Below, piece after piece: positions 4,713-41,202 of a stretch of 64,000 bases of DNA. The stretch is taken from positions 186,001 through 250,000 of the forward strand of contig NZ_FOLC01000006.1 in NCBI RefSeq assembly GCF_900112135.1. Reading direction: 5' to 3'. The notes below the pieces were generated by a model that was given only the letters and a program-made list of their open reading frames with translations, ran no database searches and had not been told where the DNA came from. Both the position numbers and the translations under genes were made by a program. The stretch is from Collimonas sp. OK412 (GTDB taxonomy: Bacteria; Pseudomonadota; Gammaproteobacteria; Burkholderiales; Burkholderiaceae_D). Each line of letters begins with the position of its first letter. The first letter of the stretch is position 1.

Positions 4713-5332
4713 TCTATCAACGCTGCCAGCGGCACTCCCTCCGGCGCTTCGTAAAGCGCTATTACCCAGGCTTGCGCCGGATCGGCCGCGGCCTGGTTGA
4801 GCGTCTTGACGACAAAGTTGATGGACGCCTTGTCCAGCCCGGCAAACGGATCGTCCAGCAGGTTGAGCCGGGCGCCGGCGGCAAACGCCGCCGCCAGCCA
4901 GACTTTCCGTTTGCTGCCGGTGGACAGCATGAACAGCTTCTTGTCCAGGTGCGGTGTCAACGACAAGCCTTCAGCCAGGCTGGGCAGCTGCGTTTCGTCA
5001 AACCCCGGATATGCCGCGTGCAGCGATGCGAAATATTCATGCGCCGTCATCTGGTCGAATTCTTCCGAGCGCGGATCCATCCAGAATACCTGCCGCCGGT
5101 AGCGCTCCGGCTGTCCGGCCAGGGATACCCCATCGATAAACAAGCTGCCGGCCTGGGCCGGCAGCGCCCCGGCCAGCAAGCGCAGCAGGCTGCTCTTGCC
5201 CCGCCCGTCGCCGCCGCGCACCAGCGTCACGCCGGCAGGAATGGCGGCCGACCAATCGCTGAACAATTCCCGCTCGGGATAGTGGAAAACCAGGCCGGTG
5301 GCCTGGAGGATGACTGTGGAGGGCTGTTTCAT
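4700..5332 (-). CDS. ABC transporter ATP-binding protein
   Basis: A 210-residue ABC ATPase. It has a Walker A (GGDGRGKSS), a degenerate signature (LSTGSKRKV) and a Walker B (LNLLDDPFAGLD). It is short and resembles the CcmA/ABC-2 type that works with a separate membrane protein, but no permease gene is adjacent, so its partner and cargo are unknown. The start chosen is the ATG at 5332 (MKQPSTVILQATGLVFHY), which matches where ABC domains begin. An upstream ATG at 5392 is possible, and neither has a strong ribosome-binding site. It converges on the GMC oxidoreductase. Confidence 0.82.
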   Translation of the reverse strand: MKQPSTVILQATGLVFHYPERELFSDWSAAIPAGVTLVRGGDGRGKSSLLRLLAGALPAQAGSLFIDGVSLAGQPERYRRQVFWMDPRSEEFDQMTAHEYFASLHAAYPGFDETQLPSLAEGLSLTPHLDKKLFMLSTGSKRKVWLAAAFAAGARLNLLDDPFAGLDKASINFVVKTLNQAAADPAQAWVIALYEAPEGVPLAALIDLGD

Positions 5333-5575
5333 CGGTGTGGTTTTCAGGTTTCCATGCGGTGATGTTTGTACCGCGATTGTAGAGGAAAGCATTTATGTAT
5401 AAATAATTTGCCGGTCCATGGCCCTTTTTTTTATCTTGCGTGGCAACCCAAATGAGAATCAGAGAAAGAGTCTCGTCGCCGTGATGCGCGGTTTGGTACG
5501 AGATCCATCCGTAAGAACCGGTATCACCTACCGTTCCCGCAGGAACAAGCAAGGCCTCATAAAGGAATCTCGGCA

Positions 5576-34021: not shown

Positions 34022-34594
34022 TCAGTTCAAGTCGCGCATCCTGCTGTGCTTGGGCAGCCTGGCCGCCAGGTAATCGTGCTGGTCGGCCAGCACGTTCCTG
34101 CCGCTCAGCAGATAGTGTTCGGCGCGGCATGGCACATAAGGCACGTACAGCAGCGGGCGGAAGCTTTCCAGCGGCTTGTTGCCCTTTTCCTGGTTGCAGT
34201 CCTTGCAGGCGGTGACGCAGTTCATCCAGGTGTCTTTGCCGCCGTGGGAGCGTGCATGGATGTGATCGCGCGACAGTTCGTTGTGCGGAAAGCGGCCGCC
34301 GCAGTATGCGCAAGTGTAGCGGTCGCGCCTGAACAGCAAGTCGTTGTGATGGCCCAGCGGCAGTTCCATGTGCAGCATGCGCGCCATGATGGCGCTGCCG
34401 GCGATGGCGATGATAGGTTTGACAGCGATGCGCGATTGCACGCCGGCGCGGGAATAGCCGCCGCGGAAAACGATGTCGCCATCTCCCAGTTCCCAAGCCA
34501 CTTTCCCGCTCGCGTAATAGAGCACAGCATCTTGCGGCGAGATCCAGTCGAATGGATTGCCTGCGATATCGAGAGTCAGAATATGGGAGATCAT
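34022..34594 (-). CDS. HNH endonuclease
   Basis: A 190-residue protein. The C-terminal HNH domain (about 95-150) is complete: CAYCGGRF, RDHIHARSHGGKDTWMN and CVTACKDCN, giving four zinc-binding cysteines and the catalytic His. The N-terminal half (SHILTLDIAGNPFDWISPQDAVLYYASGKVAWELGD) matches a common family of free-standing HNH proteins found in many Proteobacteria. The ATG at 34594 has AAAGG upstream; a GTG at 34603 is the alternative. The role is unknown; it sits next to the RNA-repair operon on the same strand, 258 bp past rtcA. Confidence 0.85.
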   Translation of the reverse strand: MISHILTLDIAGNPFDWISPQDAVLYYASGKVAWELGDGDIVFRGGYSRAGVQSRIAVKPIIAIAGSAIMARMLHMELPLGHHNDLLFRRDRYTCAYCGGRFPHNELSRDHIHARSHGGKDTWMNCVTACKDCNQEKGNKPLESFRPLLYVPYVPCRAEHYLLSGRNVLADQHDYLAARLPKHSRMRDLN

Positions 34595-34851
34595 TTTCTT
34601 CACCTTTGCCGTTGATTATAACCAGCATCTCCCGGTTTCGGAAAGCGGGCGTTTTTTCGTTGTTTTACTGGCGGATGAGCATAAATCCGATGGGGTGGTT
34701 TATCGGGAACGATCCGATATCTTCGCGGGTCACAGCCGCGGGCTTTGCCGGTTAAGCTAAAACCACCATTGAAGCGCTTCTCAGGCGCGAGAACCCATTC
34801 AGGCTGGTTCCTGAAATTGATCCGGATGACCGGCGCTAAAAGCCGGCCTAT

Positions 34852-35877
34852 CTATTTTTGAATGACACAGGTACTGAATGCGCCATTATTTTCAAACATG
34901 ATCGCCACTGGCAGAAAGCGTCTGATGACCTCGGCGTTGGTCGTTGCGTGCCTGGACACGTAACTGGTCGTGAAGCGGCCGCTTCCCGCCAATGCAAATG
35001 GCAGCATGATCTGATCCGCCAGGTGTTCACCTACCGCGGCGCCCGAGGCGATATATTGCCGAACCTGTGAAATTACTTTTTTTGCAACATCCTCGGCGCG
35101 CACCATTTTTTCGCCGAAGGCGCAAAAGACATCTGTCGCGTGCTGGTGTTCCAGGGTGAGCAGCAAGGCATTGCCTGGTCCTTGATCGTGGGACAGGCCG
35201 CGGATCAATAGTTGCGGCTCATCCCAGCCCATGGCAGTTTGCACACTGGCCAGTTCTCGCTTTGCGACATCAGCCGGCACTCCCGCGATAAAACTTTCCG
35301 CATAGCCGGACAGGCGCTCGCCGCGTGTCATCAATTCAAGTGGGCGCAGTTGTCCGCACGGCGATACGCGCGCCACGATTTCGCCGCCGCCGGCGGGATA
35401 AAAGCCGAAGCGTTTCAGTTCAATATCCACTGTCGCACCCATCTCGGCCAGCACGCGGCCGTATGCGCGCTGCAAAAAATGTGCGGGCGGCGCCATGGAA
35501 TTATGCGTACCCCCGGTGATGTGGACTACCGATGGCGCATCCGCATACAGCAATGCCGGCAGCAAGGTCTGCAACACCAGGGTGCAGCTGCCGGCCGTGC
35601 CGATGGCGAACCGGTATTCGCCGCCTTTGATTTTTCCCGGCACGAATTGCAGCGATTGCGAACCCACGGTCGCGCCGCCGATATCGGCATTGCTTATCTC
35701 GGCCGCGGCTTGCACCGCCACCAGGTGCTGGCGCATCAATCCGGGTTTGGGCCGGTTGGCCCTGATATTGGCAATGCGAAACGGTTGGCCGGTAATCATC
35801 GACAATGTCAGCGCCGTGCGCAAAACCTGGCCGCCGCCTTCCCCTGTTGCTCCATCTAATTCAATCATTTTATGCAT
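34852..35877 (-). CDS. rtcA: RNA 3'-terminal phosphate cyclase
   Basis: A 341-residue protein with the RtcA N-terminus IELDGATGEGGGQVLRTALTLSMITGQPF, the block RANRPKPGLMRQHLVAV, the nucleotide region GTAGSCTLVLQTLLPALL and the adenylated-His segment VGEHLADQIMLPFALAG. It converts RNA 3'-phosphates to 2',3'-cyclic phosphates using ATP. The start is uncertain between ATGs at 35877 (MHKMIEL) and 35868; neither has a strong ribosome-binding site. It is 69 bp downstream of rtcB in the same operon. Confidence 0.95.
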   Translation of the reverse strand: MHKMIELDGATGEGGGQVLRTALTLSMITGQPFRIANIRANRPKPGLMRQHLVAVQAAAEISNADIGGATVGSQSLQFVPGKIKGGEYRFAIGTAGSCTLVLQTLLPALLYADAPSVVHITGGTHNSMAPPAHFLQRAYGRVLAEMGATVDIELKRFGFYPAGGGEIVARVSPCGQLRPLELMTRGERLSGYAESFIAGVPADVAKRELASVQTAMGWDEPQLLIRGLSHDQGPGNALLLTLEHQHATDVFCAFGEKMVRAEDVAKKVISQVRQYIASGAAVGEHLADQIMLPFALAGSGRFTTSYVSRHATTNAEVIRRFLPVAIMFENNGAFSTCVIQK

Positions 35878-35946
35878 TTCTTTATTTTTATCGTCATGGC
35901 TTCGGCCGAAACCGGAGCCATGACATCTCATAAGAGAGGAAATCCC

Positions 35947-37182
35947 CTATCCTTTTACGCATACCACTTGTTTCAGGGTATGCACGACTTCCACCAACGC
36001 GCGCTGCGCTTCCATCACGGCGTCGATATCTTTGTACGCCATCGGAATCTCATCGATCACATTGGCATCCTTACGGCATTCCACGCCCTCGGTTGCCTTG
36101 ATCTGGTCGTCAACGGTAAAGCGTTTTTTTGCCTCGGTCCGGCTCATGGTCCGTCCGGCGCCGTGGCTGCAGCTGTTGAAGCTTTCCGCATTGCCTTTTC
36201 CGCGCACGATGAAGCTTTTCGCTCCCATCGATCCTGGAATGATCCCGAGCTCGCCTGCACGCGCCGACACGGCGCCTTTGCGCGTTACCAGCACGTCCTT
36301 GCCGAAATGGTGCTCTTTCTGCACGTAGTTATGGTGGCAATTTACTGCTTCCACGTGCGTCTCGAACGGCTTGCTGATCACAGTGCGGACCGCTGCAATC
36401 AAGTTCTGCATCATCACTTCACGGTTCATTCGCGCAAATTTCTGCGCCCAGCTCACGGCTTCGACATAATCGTCGTAATGCCGGGTGCCTTCCGGCAGAT
36501 AAGCCAGGTCCTGATCCGGCAAGTTAATGAAATGCGTACGCATATCCTGCTTGGCCAGCTCGATGAAATGCGAGCCGATCGCGTTGCCTACGCCGCGTGA
36601 ACCGGAGTGCAGCATAAACCAGACCGCATTGGTTTCGTCCAGGCATACTTCGATGAAGTGGTTGCCGGAACCCAGAGTACCCAGGTGACGATAATTATTC
36701 GTGTTTTTCAGCTTGGGCGTTTTAAGGCAAACCACGTCGAATTCGTCTTTCAACTGCGCCCATGCAGCATCAACCGGCGTCGGCGGCGTTTCCCAGGAAC
36801 CTTTATCGCGTCCCTTGAAACCACGCGTCTTCGGCGACATCCCGTGTGGAACGGCTTTCTCGATTGCACTACGCAACGGCCCCAGGTTATCGGGCAGATC
36901 GCTGGCGCTCAAGGTTGTCTTGGCAGCCATCATCCCGCAACCGATATCTACCCCGACGGCGGCAGGAATGACGGCGCCCAGGGTTGGAATCACGCTCCCG
37001 ATGGTCGAACCTTTGCCAACGTGCACGTCAGGCATTACGGCCAGATGCTTATAAATGAACGGCATCTTCGCGGTATTGGCAAGTTGCTGCCTGGCTTCGG
37101 CTTCCACCGGCACGCCTTTGGTCCACATCTTGATATGGCTTCCGCCTTCAACGTTCAACACGTCGTATTCTTCATGCTTCAT
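35947..37182 (-). CDS. rtcB: RNA-splicing ligase RtcB
   Basis: A 411-residue RtcB of the short bacterial type. Metal-binding motifs include AVMPDVHVGKGSTIGSV, GVDIGCGMMA, GSGNHFIEV and HSGSRGVGN. The guanylated histidine is in SFNSCSHGAGRTMSR near residue 330. It joins RNA 2',3'-cyclic phosphate or 3'-phosphate ends to 5'-OH ends with GTP and Mn(II), repairing cleaved tRNAs or rRNA. GAAGAAG precedes the ATG. It directly follows the Y-RNA array, so the same sigma-54 transcript can carry rsr, Y RNAs, rtcB and rtcA. Confidence 0.97.
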   Translation of the reverse strand: MKHEEYDVLNVEGGSHIKMWTKGVPVEAEARQQLANTAKMPFIYKHLAVMPDVHVGKGSTIGSVIPTLGAVIPAAVGVDIGCGMMAAKTTLSASDLPDNLGPLRSAIEKAVPHGMSPKTRGFKGRDKGSWETPPTPVDAAWAQLKDEFDVVCLKTPKLKNTNNYRHLGTLGSGNHFIEVCLDETNAVWFMLHSGSRGVGNAIGSHFIELAKQDMRTHFINLPDQDLAYLPEGTRHYDDYVEAVSWAQKFARMNREVMMQNLIAAVRTVISKPFETHVEAVNCHHNYVQKEHHFGKDVLVTRKGAVSARAGELGIIPGSMGAKSFIVRGKGNAESFNSCSHGAGRTMSRTEAKKRFTVDDQIKATEGVECRKDANVIDEIPMAYKDIDAVMEAQRALVEVVHTLKQVVCVKG

Positions 37183-37207
37183 GGTCTTCTTCTTTTAAAA
37201 ATAAGAG

Positions 37208-37328
37208 TGATGACAAGTGATGATGAAATATTTTCTGAGCTTTCGGCTTACGCCGACCCGGGTTTGAACCGGGGACCTCCGGAGCAAGCTCCGGCGCTCT
37301 ACCGATGTAATTTCATCTGCATTCATCA
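37208..37328 (-). ncRNA. Y RNA 4: tRNA-like, circularly permuted in the D-loop
   Basis: Minus-strand RNA of about 121 nt. Its ends pair (TGATGA with TCATCA, then GATGAAAT with ATTTCATC) around an internal loop ATGCA/ATCACTTG, giving the Y-stem. Inside, in order: TACATC, GGTAGAGC (3' half of a D-arm), a CCGGAG-CTTG-CTCCGG hairpin in the anticodon position, AGGT, a canonical T-arm (37257-37273, TTCAAAC loop), an acceptor helix TCGGC/GCCGA closed by GTAA (37243-37256) and GCTCAG (5' half of the D-arm). Joining the last to the first restores a full tRNA. This matches the YrlA-type Y RNA design, which binds Rsr and mimics tRNA. Confidence 0.85.
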
Positions 37329-37338
37329 AAAACAAATT

Positions 37339-37479
37339 GGCGACAAGGAGTGGTGAAACGGTGTGCGGTTTCCCGCACGGCGCTCTTCCAGTTAAGCTAC
37401 GGCGACGGTATTTTGTCGCCGGCGGGATTTGAACCCGCACCTCCCCAGGTTTAATGATGTAGTTCCACCTGCATTCGCC
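37339..37479 (-). ncRNA. Y RNA 3: tRNA-like, permuted between T-arm and anticodon arm
   Basis: Minus-strand RNA of about 141 nt. The Y-stem is GGCGA/TCGCC, then an ATGCA/ACTCCTTG internal loop, then GGTGGAA/TTTCACC. Inside, in order: TACATCA, a T-arm GCGGGTTCAAATCCCGC (37422-37438), a perfect 7-bp acceptor helix CGGCGAC/GTCGCCG (37400-37421) with an 8-nt loop joining the two strands, a complete D-arm (37382-37397) and a GTGCGG-GAAA-CCGCAC hairpin (37363-37378) in place of the anticodon arm. There is no free 3' CCA end, so it is not a working tRNA. Same design as YrlA but a different permutation point from Y RNA 4. Confidence 0.85.
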
Positions 37480-37503
37480 TAAAACCTGATAATGCGCGGT
37501 CTG

Positions 37504-37728
37504 TTAAATCCCGACAAGAGTCGACAGGACATTCTGCCAGACTTGTTCCGCCTGGCAGGCCGGATTCGAACCGACTTTACCTGATGTAGTCTTGCCGGCA
37601 TTCGGGGACACGCGCAATTGAGCCACGGTATGACAAGAGGTCGATGTGACGAGACAATTTGATGTAATCACACCGGCATTCATGCCGCGCTCAAAACCTG
37701 TACTGCTAATTCTGATCAGCCAGCTCAT
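37504..37728 (-). CDS. Possible small ORF reading through Y RNAs 1 and 2
   Basis: AAGGAG lies 6 nt before an ATG at 37728 and opens a 74-codon frame (MSWLIRISSTGFERGMNAGV...) that stays open across both Y-RNA structures and ends at the base of Y RNA 2. The codons for MNAGVITS and PNAGKTTS coincide with the conserved Y motif. The strong ribosome-binding site just after rsr is hard to dismiss, but the composition looks like translated structured RNA. I give it low weight. Confidence 0.3.
   Translation of the reverse strand: MSWLIRISSTGFERGMNAGVITSNCLVTSTSCHTVAQLRVSPNAGKTTSGKVGSNPACQAEQVWQNVLSTLVGI
37509..37608 (-). ncRNA. Y RNA 2: Y-stem with T-arm/acceptor minihelix
   Basis: Minus-strand RNA of about 100 nt. 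The Y-stem is TCCCCGA/TCGGGA, internal loop ATGCC/GACTCTTG, then GGCAAGAC/GTCCTGTC with one mismatch. TACATCA follows. The loop holds a T-arm GTCGGTTCGAATCCGGC (37559-37575) stacked directly on a perfect 7-bp acceptor-like helix CTGCCAG/CTGGCAG closed by 11 nt (37534-37558). No D-arm or anticodon arm is present, so it mimics only the top half of a tRNA. Confidence 0.75.
37626..37687 (-). ncRNA. Y RNA 1: minimal Y-stem without tRNA module
   Basis: Minus-strand RNA of about 62 nt. CGGCATGA pairs with TCATACCG (one mismatch), the internal loop is ATGCC/GACCTCTTG, and the inner helix is GGTGTGAT/GTCACATC. The terminal loop is short and begins TACATCA. It has the same stem, internal loop and TACATC signature as the other three but no tRNA-like insert, suggesting a bare Rsr-binding element. 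Confidence 0.65.
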
Positions 37729-37775
37729 ATTGAGCTCCTTTAATAAGACCCTCAGCCGTATCTGGGCCAGGGGCG

Positions 37776-39329
37776 TCAAATAACGATGGATTGAATTTCA
37801 CCCACCCAATGCGCTGAACTCAACTGACCGGCTGCAAAATCGGCGACGATCTGGAAGATATCGTCCGAAAAACCGCCGATGTTCAAGATGTCTGCCCGTT
37901 CCACGGCCTGGGTCGTGCTGTATGGCGTGATATCGATGCAAGCCAGCCTGGCGTTCGGGTTGCGCTGCTTGAATATGTTCCATTCACGCATTGTGGCAGT
38001 TGCGCCGCCACGCTTCGCGTCCACCCAGGATTCGTTATCCGACACAAAAATCACCAGGTCAGCCTTCGCCTTGTTCTTGTTCAACTGCGCCAGCGGTGCG
38101 CTGCAATTTGTGCCGCCGCCGCCGATGGACGCCAGCTTGCTCGCGTTAGTCATGACTGAATCGCGCGGATTCACATTGCAAGCCACTACGTCATTTTCGA
38201 ACGGCAACACCAGCGTGTCCGGATTCTTGCGCAGCATCGCGGCAGCCATCAGCGCGGCGACATCGATGCAACGAACCGCCGATGTCGCAGAACCGCGATA
38301 CCCTGTGGCGGATGAATGCATGGAGCCTGATACGTCAGGGCACACCACTACCTTTCCGGCAATTTCAGGCACGTTGTTCAGCGCAATTTCCATCGCGTCT
38401 TGTAATGCTTCACTAATTTCCATTGGTATCTCTTTGTTGGCCGCGGCATAGGCGGCCATTAACTGGTACGGAAAAACCATGGCCTTCGCAATCGCTTCGG
38501 CGTCGCGCAGTTTCTCCGCAATGCATGCCGTCATGCCCGGTAACGCATACACACCGTGGCGCGCAAATGTATTCAGGTTCATGCGCAGCATCTGCCATCC
38601 GCTTTGGCGTGCAATCTGCGCCCATGCCTGGTCCGACAGTTCCAACGCGGTCAGCATCTGGAACGGCACATTCGGCAACGGTTGCGAGCGGTCGGCCTTG
38701 TACGCCTCAAATGCCTTTACCAGAGGCGGCAGCGCTTGCGGGTCATATGCCTTGCCGATCAGCCATGCGAAGAATGCTTCACGCCAGGCTTCCGCCGGTT
38801 TGGGATGGACCATCTTCACTACATCAGCCAGCGACGGCGCATTGCCTACCGCTGCGGACAACAAGTCTTTTTCGGACGCATTGTTCAGCCATGCTTGCAC
38901 CAGCTTCTTCGGACGGGTGCCCAGCGACTTGCGTCCTACGGCGCCCGATCGCATGATTTGCACAAAATTGCGCAGCATCTTGCCGTTGTTGATCACGCGC
39001 TTGAAAGTGCGCGACAGCTCGGGCGATCCTTTTCCAGCCAATGTCGCTGTCAACAACGCCGGCATATCTTTCATATAGCCGCGTTCACGGCAGTACACGG
39101 CGGTCTGTGCAACGAAATGCGCATCGACTTCTTTGCACAGTTCCAATACGGTTTCCAGCTGGGCTTCGGCGCTTGCGTAGTAAGTAGCGTTCAGGCAGCC
39201 GGTAGCCGCGTATTGCGCCAGCTGATGGCGCGGCGACATTGCATAGGCTGGCGCCCCTTCGAAGTTGGCGGCGTTTGCCTGCGGCAGGAATTTGCCCTTC
39301 AGGCTCTGGAACAATTGGGTATTAGCCAT
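37776..39329 (-). CDS. rsr: Ro60 ortholog Rsr (TROVE-domain RNA-binding protein)
   Basis: A 517-residue protein. The N-terminal TROVE HEAT-repeat ring (about 1-340) contains GCLNATYYASAEAQLETV, CRERGYMKDMPALLTATLAGK, FKRVINNGKMLRNFVQIMRSGAVGRKSLGTRPKKLVQ and MLRMNLNTFARHGV. A vWA-like domain follows with the MIDAS motif CPDVSGSMHSS. Ro60 proteins bind misfolded RNAs in the ring cavity and Y RNAs on the rim. In bacteria Rsr works with YrlA and exoribonucleases. The ATG at 39329 (MANTQLFQ) has GAGGAA upstream; the frame opens two codons earlier. A sigma-54 promoter lies about 90 bp upstream. Confidence 0.93.
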   Translation of the reverse strand: MANTQLFQSLKGKFLPQANAANFEGAPAYAMSPRHQLAQYAATGCLNATYYASAEAQLETVLELCKEVDAHFVAQTAVYCRERGYMKDMPALLTATLAGKGSPELSRTFKRVINNGKMLRNFVQIMRSGAVGRKSLGTRPKKLVQAWLNNASEKDLLSAAVGNAPSLADVVKMVHPKPAEAWREAFFAWLIGKAYDPQALPPLVKAFEAYKADRSQPLPNVPFQMLTALELSDQAWAQIARQSGWQMLRMNLNTFARHGVYALPGMTACIAEKLRDAEAIAKAMVFPYQLMAAYAAANKEIPMEISEALQDAMEIALNNVPEIAGKVVVCPDVSGSMHSSATGYRGSATSAVRCIDVAALMAAAMLRKNPDTLVLPFENDVVACNVNPRDSVMTNASKLASIGGGGTNCSAPLAQLNKNKAKADLVIFVSDNESWVDAKRGGATATMREWNIFKQRNPNARLACIDITPYSTTQAVERADILNIGGFSDDIFQIVADFAAGQLSSAHWVGEIQSIVI

Positions 39330-39415
39330 TTTCATTTCCTCGGTTCTTGGTCACTGTTGCTATTCGTTTGCGGCGAGATCCTGATTTGGATCTGCTCGCT
39401 CTATGTCCCTTATAT

Positions 39416-39431
39416 TGCAACGACTGTGCCA
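39416..39431 (-). promoter_or_regulatory. Sigma-54 promoter of the rsr-Y RNA-rtcBA operon
   Basis: On the minus strand TGGCACAGTCGTTGCA is a full match to the -24/-12 consensus (TGGCAC-N5-TTGCA). It faces rsr, leaving a leader of about 75 nt. RtcR, encoded divergently, is the dedicated sigma-54 activator of rtc operons, so this is its target. The AT-rich 100 bp further upstream would hold its enhancer sites. Confidence 0.92.
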
Positions 39432-39570: not shown

Positions 39571-41202
39571 ATGAAGAAGAAACGCGTTGTTGTTGTTGGA
39601 TTTGTCGGCACCCAACTGGACAAGGGCTCTGGCAGCGGCCGCTGGGACAAATGGCGTCCTACGGTCGCGCTGACCCAGCATGACGAGATGGTGATCGAAC
39701 GCCTGGAGCTGCTGTATAGCGGCAAGTACGAAAACCTTGTGCAGCAGGTAACACGCGATATCGGATCGGTGTCTCCGGAAACCGAAGTGGTTGCCCGCCA
39801 GCTGCCTATCGCCGATCCCTGGGATTTTGAAGACGTGTATGGAAGCCTGTTCGATTTTGCGAAGAGCTACCCGTTCGATACCGATAACGAGGAATACTGG
39901 ATCCACATCACAACCGGTTCGCACGTGGTCCAGATCTGCATGTTCCTGATGACCGAGGCGCACTATTTTCCAGCACGCCTGCTGCAATCCTCGCCACCGC
40001 GCCGGCACAGGGCTGGCGACCCGGGGAGCTATACGCTGATCGATCTCGATCTCTCCAGGTATGACCAGATCGCGCAACGTTTCTCGCGTGAGCAAGAGGA
40101 AGGAGTGGCGTTCCTGAAATCCGGCATTGCAACCCGCAATGCGCGTTTCAATACCATGATCGATGAAATCGAGCGTGTCGCCATCAAATCCAGGGCGCCT
40201 ATCTTGCTGATGGGGCCGACCGGAGCCGGCAAATCGTTTCTTGCCCGGCGCGTGTTCGAGTTAAAGAAAGCACGCCATCAGCTGGATGGAAAATTCGTTG
40301 AGTTGAATTGCGCGACGCTGCATGGCGACGGCGCAGGATCTACTTTGTTCGGCCATATCAAAGGGGCGTTCACAGGCGCGGCTTCGGACCGTCCGGGGCT
40401 GCTGCGTACGGCGCACAAGGGATTGCTGTTCCTCGACGAGATCGGAGAGCTGGGTCTTGACGAGCAGGCCATGCTGCTGAAAGCGGTCGAGGAAAAGCGC
40501 TTTCTTCCGGTAGGCGGCGACCACGAGGTGCAAAGCGACTTCCAGTTGATCGCCGGCACCAATCGCGATCTGTCGAGGGAAGTTGTAGCCGGACGCTTCC
40601 GCGAAGACTTGTATGCGCGTATCAACCTGTGGACCTACGAACTACCTGGACTGGTAGACCGCTCGGAAGATATCGAACCCAATATCGATTACCTGCTGGC
40701 GCAATTCGGCGCTGAAAACGGCCAGATGGTTCGTCTGAACAAGGAAGCGCGGGATCACTACATGCGTTTTGCGATGTCGGCAGAAGCGCTGTGGATGGGA
40801 AATTTCAGGGATTTGTCGGCTTCCGTGACACGTATGGCGACATTGGCCGATGCCGGCCGTATTACCGCTGCCATCGTGTCCGATGAGACCCGGCGCCTGA
40901 AACGGTTGTGGCATCACTATGCAACACCGTCGACCGAAGCGGATGGGATCGACCCTGAGGAAGTGCTAGGGCGAGATCAGATAGCGCAAATGGATTTGTT
41001 CGATGTCATGCAATTGAAAGCGGTAATCGAGATATGCCGTCGTTCGAAATCGATGTCTGATGCTGGCCGCAAACTGTTCGCCGCATCGCGCAGCGCCAAG
41101 GAAAAACCAAACGATGCGGACCGGCTCAAGAAATATCTGGCGAAATTCGGCCTGAACTGGGAGAGATTGAACGCAGGCGGCAGCGACACAATCGTCAGGT
41201 AA
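39571..41202 (+). CDS. rtcR: Sigma-54-dependent RNA-repair activator RtcR
   Basis: A 543-residue regulator. The N-terminal RtcR domain (about 1-180, MKKKRVVVVGFVGTQLDKG..., THITTGSHVVQICMFLMTEA) is a CARF-like ligand domain. The AAA+ module has Walker A GPTGAGKS near 214, the sigma-54-contacting GAFTGA at 265-270 and Walker B FLDEIGE. A C-terminal region with a DNA-binding helix follows. Family members sense RNA ends carrying 2',3'-cyclic phosphate and then open the sigma-54 promoter of rtcBA. It is divergent from rsr and overlaps the stop of the next, convergent gene by 8 bp. Confidence 0.95.
   Translation: MKKKRVVVVGFVGTQLDKGSGSGRWDKWRPTVALTQHDEMVIERLELLYSGKYENLVQQVTRDIGSVSPETEVVARQLPIADPWDFEDVYGSLFDFAKSYPFDTDNEEYWIHITTGSHVVQICMFLMTEAHYFPARLLQSSPPRRHRAGDPGSYTLIDLDLSRYDQIAQRFSREQEEGVAFLKSGIATRNARFNTMIDEIERVAIKSRAPILLMGPTGAGKSFLARRVFELKKARHQLDGKFVELNCATLHGDGAGSTLFGHIKGAFTGAASDRPGLLRTAHKGLLFLDEIGELGLDEQAMLLKAVEEKRFLPVGGDHEVQSDFQLIAGTNRDLSREVVAGRFREDLYARINLWTYELPGLVDRSEDIEPNIDYLLAQFGAENGQMVRLNKEARDHYMRFAMSAEALWMGNFRDLSASVTRMATLADAGRITAAIVSDETRRLKRLWHHYATPSTEADGIDPEEVLGRDQIAQMDLFDVMQLKAVIEICRRSKSMSDAGRKLFAASRSAKEKPNDADRLKKYLAKFGLNWERLNAGGSDTIVR

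Follow-up and report, generated by a model that had tools for sequence, protein, structure and literature searches.

Bacterial Y RNAs are already known as partners of Ro60 encoded near its gene and as tRNA mimics, with YrlB, YrlA and the circular permutation of the latter among what has been described. A survey from 2014 reportedly found Y RNAs in over 250 species, each of which had one or more tRNA-like members, so that a locus with several Y RNAs is no novelty as such. In Salmonella, the rsr-yrlB-yrlA-rtcBA operon under RtcR/sigma-54 control is described with two Y RNAs in the rsr-rtcB interval, a bare one and a tRNA-like one (PMC7790460, PMC9879122), and its activator RtcR responds to tRNA 5' fragments with a 2',3'-cyclic phosphate end (PMC7790460). 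The tRNA-like module of YrlA (PDB 6CU1) is a circularly permuted tRNA fold set on the Y stem (PMC11472068, PMC13355120), YrlA is modified by DusA and TruB (PMC8394870), and Salmonella Rsr and YrlA bind PNPase (PMC9879122). In Deinococcus radiodurans, the Y RNA of the Rsr-PNPase complex (RYPER), to which the role in rRNA decay belongs, ends in two hairpins, one of them T-arm-like, and this end binds PNPase (PMC6181284).

The window analysed here, a stretch of 64,000 nucleotides from Collimonas sp. OK412, shares gene order, control and the combination of bare and tRNA-like Y RNAs with the Salmonella operon. In contrast, it holds four units instead of two, all with scores under the Rfam cut-offs, and its extras are a minihelix unit, a hairpin on the YrlA-like unit and a unit opened in the D loop. 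The four natural modules of the array are set on the same type of stem and are directly comparable.

Along the minus strand, rsr is followed in turn by the four Y units, rtcB, rtcA, tRNA-His and an HNH gene. The product of rsr (37776..39335, minus strand) is a Ro60 homologue according to Pfam (vWA_Ro60, E 9.4e-20; TROVE with 22.0 bits, slightly below the cut-off of 23) and matches the Deinococcus Rsr structure 2NVO with E 2e-22; the closest named relative by Rsr is Collimonas humicola (86% identity). The RNA ligase gene rtcB (35947..37182, minus strand; Pfam RtcB, E 1.5e-133) and the RNA 3'-phosphate cyclase gene rtcA (34852..35931, minus strand; Pfam RTC, E 9.4e-80) lie downstream, and the divergent rtcR, encoding the sigma-54 activator (39571..41202, plus strand; Pfam RtcR, E 3.3e-83, and Sigma54_activat, E 1.2e-48), is followed by rlaP. 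About 95 nt upstream of the rsr start, a sigma-54 promoter-like site, TGGCACAGTCGTTGC (39417..39431, minus strand), is the sole match to the consensus in the window, yet 23 of 100 shuffled windows hold at least one. From rsr to rtcB, including the Y array, no sigma-70-like site was found on the minus strand, and a terminator-like site at the end of rsr (37785-37806) is the only one in the region, versus a mean of 3.9 in shuffles. Apparently, rsr-Y1-Y2-Y3-Y4-rtcB-rtcA form one operon adjoining the RtcR gene. The position of the units within this apparent operon and the lack of sigma-70-like sites on the minus strand within the array would also suit structures that give rise to no RNAs of their own and act solely in the rsr-rtcB messenger, e.g. 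as stabilising or processing elements. This explanation is highly improbable in our judgement, as both the tertiary elements of tRNA and the motifs of the Y stem persist across phyla, the YrlA units of Cardiobacterium lie upstream of rsr, and the Y RNAs of Salmonella and Deinococcus are separate RNAs in the papers cited above.

Instead, the minus strand of the rsr-rtcB interval is confirmed to encode four separate predicted bacterial Y RNAs, for which an earlier note on this DNA had given coordinates that proved correct within a few bases. Y1 (37626..37687, minus strand), 89 bases from rsr, is a bare, YrlB-like Y RNA consisting of a Y stem and a small loop without tRNA module, and Y2 (37507..37609, minus strand) carries a T-arm and an adjacent acceptor-like hairpin, i.e. 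a minihelix, on the Y stem. Y3 (37336..37482, minus strand) resembles YrlA, with a tRNA body that is opened at the anticodon and comprises T-arm, closed acceptor and D-arm, and has an extra GAAA-capped hairpin; in Y4 (37206..37330, minus strand), the unit nearest to rtcB, the opening of the tRNA body lies in the D loop. Anatomy hence bears out the inserts that had been proposed (none, a T-arm plus acceptor-like minihelix, and two full tRNA-like folds), and their description as Rsr-linked Y RNAs is supported by the adjoining Ro60 homologue. Common to all four are the motifs GAATGC ... TACATC ... CTTGTC together with two helices, one outer and one inner; of the shared closing stem, internal loop and TACATC signature claimed before, geometry and loop motifs are indeed common, but the stem sequence differs. 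Y4 is, moreover, shorter than Y3.

As checks, the earlier note had named a covariance search, folding of each interval and a comparison with relatives for compensatory changes. When Rfam was applied to positions 36900-38000 at a relaxed threshold, YrlA (RF02553) matched Y3 (44.1 bits, E 2.8e-8), Y4 (33.5 bits, E 3.1e-5) and Y2 (32.8 bits, E 5.1e-5), and YrlB (RF02565) weakly matched Y1 (18.2 bits, E 1.5). No unit reaches the gathering scores of 69 bits (YrlA) and 97 bits (YrlB), and in a whole-window Rfam scan at gathering score all four are absent. Present annotation therefore overlooks the Y RNAs of the window, with none of four called at that score. As for tRNA genes with anticodon and CCA-bearing 3' end, ARAGORN calls none in 37206-37687, and the Rfam tRNA model scores Y4 with 23.1 bits, below its cut-off of 29. 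Folding gave energy z values of -3.4, -3.5, -4.5 and -3.4 for Y1 to Y4, with none of 200 dinucleotide shuffles folding as well for any unit, and the tRNA-like core of Y4 alone reached -2.7 (1 of 200 shuffles as good). With a covariance model based on Y4 plus 16 relatives, every unit of the window was recovered, at 139.4 (by construction), 57.7, 33.9 and 26.1 bits, and 283 matches with E up to 0.01 were obtained in 81 sources.

For the comparison with relatives, structures were drawn on the window unit and pairs were counted on MAFFT alignments, the shuffles leaving relatedness in. Paired cells amount to 95.9% for Y1 (20 sequences), 96.4% for Y2 (19), 95.9% for Y3 (12) and 93.4% for Y4 (17), and both sides have changed in 6 of 11, 13 of 25, 14 of 35 and 18 of 33 pairs, respectively, so that compensatory changes were found in all four units. 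The covariation score was matched by none of 500 shuffles in each case and was lower when partners were slid; as counter-evidence, 19 of 500 shuffles equalled Y1 in doubly changed pairs, and 179 of 500 equalled Y2 in further pair types. The extra hairpin of Y3 is just 78.3% paired because three sequences have it placed elsewhere. Within the 17-sequence alignment of Y4, the D stem shows no double change; it is gapped in two sequences and invariant except for one one-sided change. Among D-loop-opened units in general, the D stem takes the forms GAGC/GCTC, GCGC/GCGC (five Mesorhizobium-type units) and CGC/GCG (Leu-like bodies), as found with a pattern that was written to find those forms and is misplaced in L054 and L068. 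These variants read as compensatory change between families, and the D-stem covariation of Y4 depends on this family comparison. Overall, each predicted structure from Y1 to Y4 is supported by covariation, and this includes the closing stem with conserved internal-loop motifs that is expected of a Y RNA.

The two full tRNA mimics differ in where the tRNA body has been opened. In Y4, GGTA and the 3' half of the D stem (GAGC, 37296..37299), i.e. the 3' halves of D loop and D stem, come first, followed by an anticodon arm with a predicted 6-bp stem and a CUUG cap in place of the 7-nt anticodon loop (37279..37294), an AGGTC variable loop, a T-arm with the loop TTCAAAC (37257..37273), a predicted acceptor stem closed by GUAA (37243..37256) and finally AA-GCTC-A, all on the minus strand. 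Therein, the 5' half of the D stem (GCTC, 37237..37240, minus strand) is predicted to pair with 37296-37299 and to close the cloverleaf; at the position of tRNA U8, the window unit has an A. In a rotation-blind alignment, for which each insert was cut out, rotated in steps of three with subsequent refinement and compared with 45 distinct tRNAs of the same genome, Y4 found its best partner in tRNA-Asn(GUU), scoring 35.2 rotated and 28.3 unrotated versus 21.5 for the best of six shuffles, and its junction fell within the D loop, at tRNA position 15. Y3 aligned best with an Arg tRNA (28.3 rotated, 16.2 unrotated, 19.2 shuffled) and a junction at position 35 in the anticodon loop; Y2 scored 22.5 rotated, 16.3 unrotated and 17.6 shuffled, and Y1 stayed at shuffle level against real tRNAs (7.8 and 7.8). 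Over all units aligned in this way, the junction falls at tRNA positions 14-16 in all 19 tested units read as D-loop-opened and at 26-40 in six of seven tested units of YrlA order, the remaining one (L073 unit 2) joining at 18, off the anticodon. Y3 therefore follows the order of YrlA and carries one hairpin more, and Y4 represents another circular permutation. The sequence of T-arm, acceptor, D-arm hairpin and closing anticodon-side stem, which is that of the YrlA module in 6CU1, is found in the window in Y3 only, whereas Y4 has an anticodon arm and its module is closed by the D stem, not by the anticodon stem. As judged from sequence and predicted fold, Y4 is a complete cloverleaf whose D loop has been cut open, its anticodon arm being capped by a tetraloop and its acceptor closed. 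The "stepwise increase" in mimicry proposed earlier is accordingly replaced by two tRNA permutations, opened in the anticodon loop and in the D loop, respectively, which do not form one series.

An opening of Y3 in the variable loop was considered and rejected, since its best tRNA alignment joins at position 35 and relatives (e.g. L073 unit 1 and L086 unit 1) have an anticodon stem as closing stem and AGGTC as variable loop; hence, the extra hairpin of Y3 is an addition to YrlA. Both Y3 and Y4 retain the T-loop/T-arm, the D stem, G18G19-like bases, A14 and the stacked acceptor-T arm, and in both the acceptor is closed as a hairpin and neither an anticodon loop nor a CCA end is present. In the accessible parts of the literature, a full-text search found no D-loop-opened permutant and no Leu-like Y RNA, though primary Y-RNA papers may show them.

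The isotype likeness of Y4 is clear, with 35.2 for Asn and 25.5 for the runner-up. Among 21 units compared with the tRNAs of the host of the window, Asn ranks first in 11, and the others resemble Met (L013), Arg, Gly or Leu, several of them as near-ties. A D-loop-opened body with a long variable arm, nearest to tRNA-Leu, occurs in Mesorhizobium relatives and two Burkholderiales. Six such Mesorhizobium-type units score 33.9-40.9 for Leu and 21.7-30.6 for the runner-up; L045 and L047 are weaker, with 26.7 and 27.3 for Leu versus 21.5 and 21.4. As a control, 30 of 37 Mesorhizobium tRNAs match their own isotype in the host set.

The distribution of such units was assessed using a motif-plus-helix finder built on the motifs of the window and applied to the first 1,200 bases downstream of rsr. 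At its lowest threshold, 399 units in 111 loci were obtained, near-duplicates included, and none in one mononucleotide shuffle per locus or on the reverse strand. Removal of identical stretches left 95 loci with 352 units, 91 of these loci having at least one unit. The finder missed at least one unit called by Rfam (L035:7989-8103): in nine other loci, Rfam calls seven YrlA units above the cut-off, one of them missed by the finder, versus 33 finder units. Arrays of four or more Y RNAs are common, as 49 of the 91 loci (range 1-9 units) and 28 of the 65 loci having rtcB downstream contain at least four, and the earlier view of four units side by side as unusual was given up.

A formal classifier recognised 28 of the 352 units as D-loop-opened (2 of 3,520 core-shuffled), 87 as YrlA order (2 of 3,520) and 66 as minihelix (32 of 3,520); by locus, D-loop-opened units occur in 24 of 91, YrlA order in 58 and both in 18. 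By eye, 42 D-loop-opened units were picked in 32 of the 91 loci, where conservation of the motifs is no blind count because the units were chosen partly by GG and GAGC; the classifier recovers 27 of these 42 and calls one extra. The 42 belong to Oxalobacteraceae, Acidovorax- and Cupriavidus-type Burkholderiales, Alphaproteobacteria, Methylomonas, a Bryobacterales MAG and a Bacteroidota MAG, and the Y4 model also matches L014 and L100, both outside this set. D-loop-opened calls for L049 unit 2, L063 unit 1 and L088 unit 3 were dropped as false on inspection by eye. Four loci (L021, L022, L025 and L030) have one bare and one D-loop-opened unit and no others, so the D-loop-opened body can be the sole tRNA mimic. 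Within 15 genomes of the genus, the five with rsr are the same five that have three or four matches to the Y4 model, and among the ten others, one has a single weak match. In viral contigs, two exact D-loop-opened patterns led to 14 stretches, in which the Y4 model gave one weak match (18.5 bits) and the finder none, so these two patterns yielded no phage copy. Separately, three Y RNAs of 88-89 nt (L008 unit 3, L009 unit 1 and L014 unit 2) show a hairpin followed by a T-arm but lack the acceptor hairpin, and are perhaps decayed D-loop-opened bodies. In Cardiobacterium hominis, the YrlA units upstream of rsr lie at L079:5190-5792 and L072:5414-5674; two "tRNA-Cys" calls of ARAGORN in L079 overlap tandem YrlA units and were discarded as misreadings.

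Identity between the units of the window and their counterparts amounts to 77-89% for a congener (L089) and another genus (L094) and to 70-86% for Undibacterium terreum, versus 34-61% for Y1 to Y4 against one another, so the four are not recent duplicates. These values bear on another explanation, in which the units are redundant tethers, all modules recruiting PNPase and the array representing copy number with drifting ends. PNPase binding reported for both a minihelix-type Y RNA (Deinococcus; PMC6181284) and YrlA (Salmonella; PMC9879122) as well as the variation from 1 to 9 units across 91 loci would be in line with it. Drifting ends, however, are hard to reconcile with counterparts that hold their own module type and identity across genera and with the D-loop-opened unit being the last before rtcB in all 20 betaproteobacterial loci that have one picked by eye, and we rate redundant tethers as quite improbable.

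Probably, the apparent rsr-rtcBA operon encodes four Y RNAs with four separately conserved ends, of which the Y stems would be bound by Rsr and the exposed modules would recruit partners. According to this proposal, tRNA damage would switch the operon on, Rsr would bind each Y stem, and each module exposed thereby would recruit its partner. By resemblance, the minihelix of Y2 would come closest to the T-arm hairpin pair tethering PNPase in Deinococcus, to which it is likened by anatomy alone (PMC6181284), Y3 and Y4 might present the elbow of a tRNA to PNPase, to enzymes that modify tRNA or to nucleases that cleave it, and Y1 might occupy or gate Rsr with no effector. As Y3 and Y4 are without CCA end and anticodon loop, the displayed part would be the elbow, which points to elbow-reading partners such as PNPase, modification enzymes and nucleases and away from aminoacylation and decoding. 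That two different permutations agree in the elbow they retain and in the two ends they lack shows what has been maintained by selection and hence what the partner should read.

The same two losses, no anticodon loop and no free acceptor end in either Y3 or Y4, could also characterise a set of decoys, in which the full mimics are uncleavable tRNA bodies competing for anticodon nucleases or other tRNA-damaging enzymes during RtcA/RtcB repair and Rsr mainly stabilises. Hughes et al. saw no YrlA fragments under SOS and suggested YrlA as a competitive inhibitor of an SOS-linked nuclease (PMC7790460). A decoy should, however, keep the part read by the nuclease, and the anticodon loop is precisely what is missing; moreover, the bare and the minihelix unit are left unexplained, so that we find decoys unlikely. 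Returning to the recruitment of partners by separate modules, a tentative extension, which may well not hold, is that tRNA bodies were acquired by Y RNAs in two or more circular permutations (anticodon loop and D loop) and from more than one tRNA type, namely Asn-like bodies of class I in Betaproteobacteria and, in Mesorhizobium relatives and two Burkholderiales, Leu-like bodies of class II whose variable arm is long, with the elbow kept and both working ends gone. A single RNA-repair operon might then display several tRNA bodies without ends on one and the same Rsr ring and, with the divergent spare tRNA that follows rtcA, serve in sorting, shielding or replacing tRNAs that have been damaged.

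This divergent tRNA is a second tRNA-His(GUG) gene with the T loop ATCGTTC (34691..34766, minus strand), located 85 nt after rtcA on the same strand and matching the other tRNA-His of the genome at 44 of 76 positions. Relatives of it were found in 5 of the 294 family genomes searched (host included), all with rsr, and a damaged copy was seen in the congener G175; a phage search with it returned no match. It may serve the repair operon as a spare tRNA or as one resistant to nucleases. However, of 54 loci with rtcA, only 3, the window counted, have a tRNA at a distance of up to 3 kb from this gene. In Anabaena, a stress-induced trn operon co-repressed with rtcB likewise ties spare tRNAs to RNA repair, comparable to the tRNA-His and the tRNA arrays near rsr loci, but has the repressor TrcR instead of RtcR and a plasmid-borne tRNA array, and the accessible part of that report mentions no Y RNAs (PMC10272220).

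Behind tRNA-His, an HNH endonuclease-like gene (34022-34603, minus strand) is present at the same place with 93-98% identity in the four Collimonas relatives compared (L228-L231), and past this gene, a second RtcB homologue with 54-55% identity to the operon RtcB was seen in Collimonas relatives (L007:11771-12916, also L229 and L231). When ARAGORN was run in its intron mode at a low threshold, 44 calls were obtained over 16 kb and discarded as noise. Downstream of rtcA in G016 (L232:4643-6158, equal to locus L008), ARAGORN lists a row of Gly, Arg, Pro, Leu and His tRNAs, the last being the same divergent tRNA-His, and this row also includes a Trp-like tRNA with a long variable-region insertion (5228-5382, 51.2 bits). 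Same-strand tRNA rows are further found upstream of rsr in two MAGs, one from Acidobacteria around an rtcB (L058:130-5778; 15 tRNAs by ARAGORN, 16 by Rfam) and one from Pyrinomonadaceae (L063:750-3318; 10 by ARAGORN).
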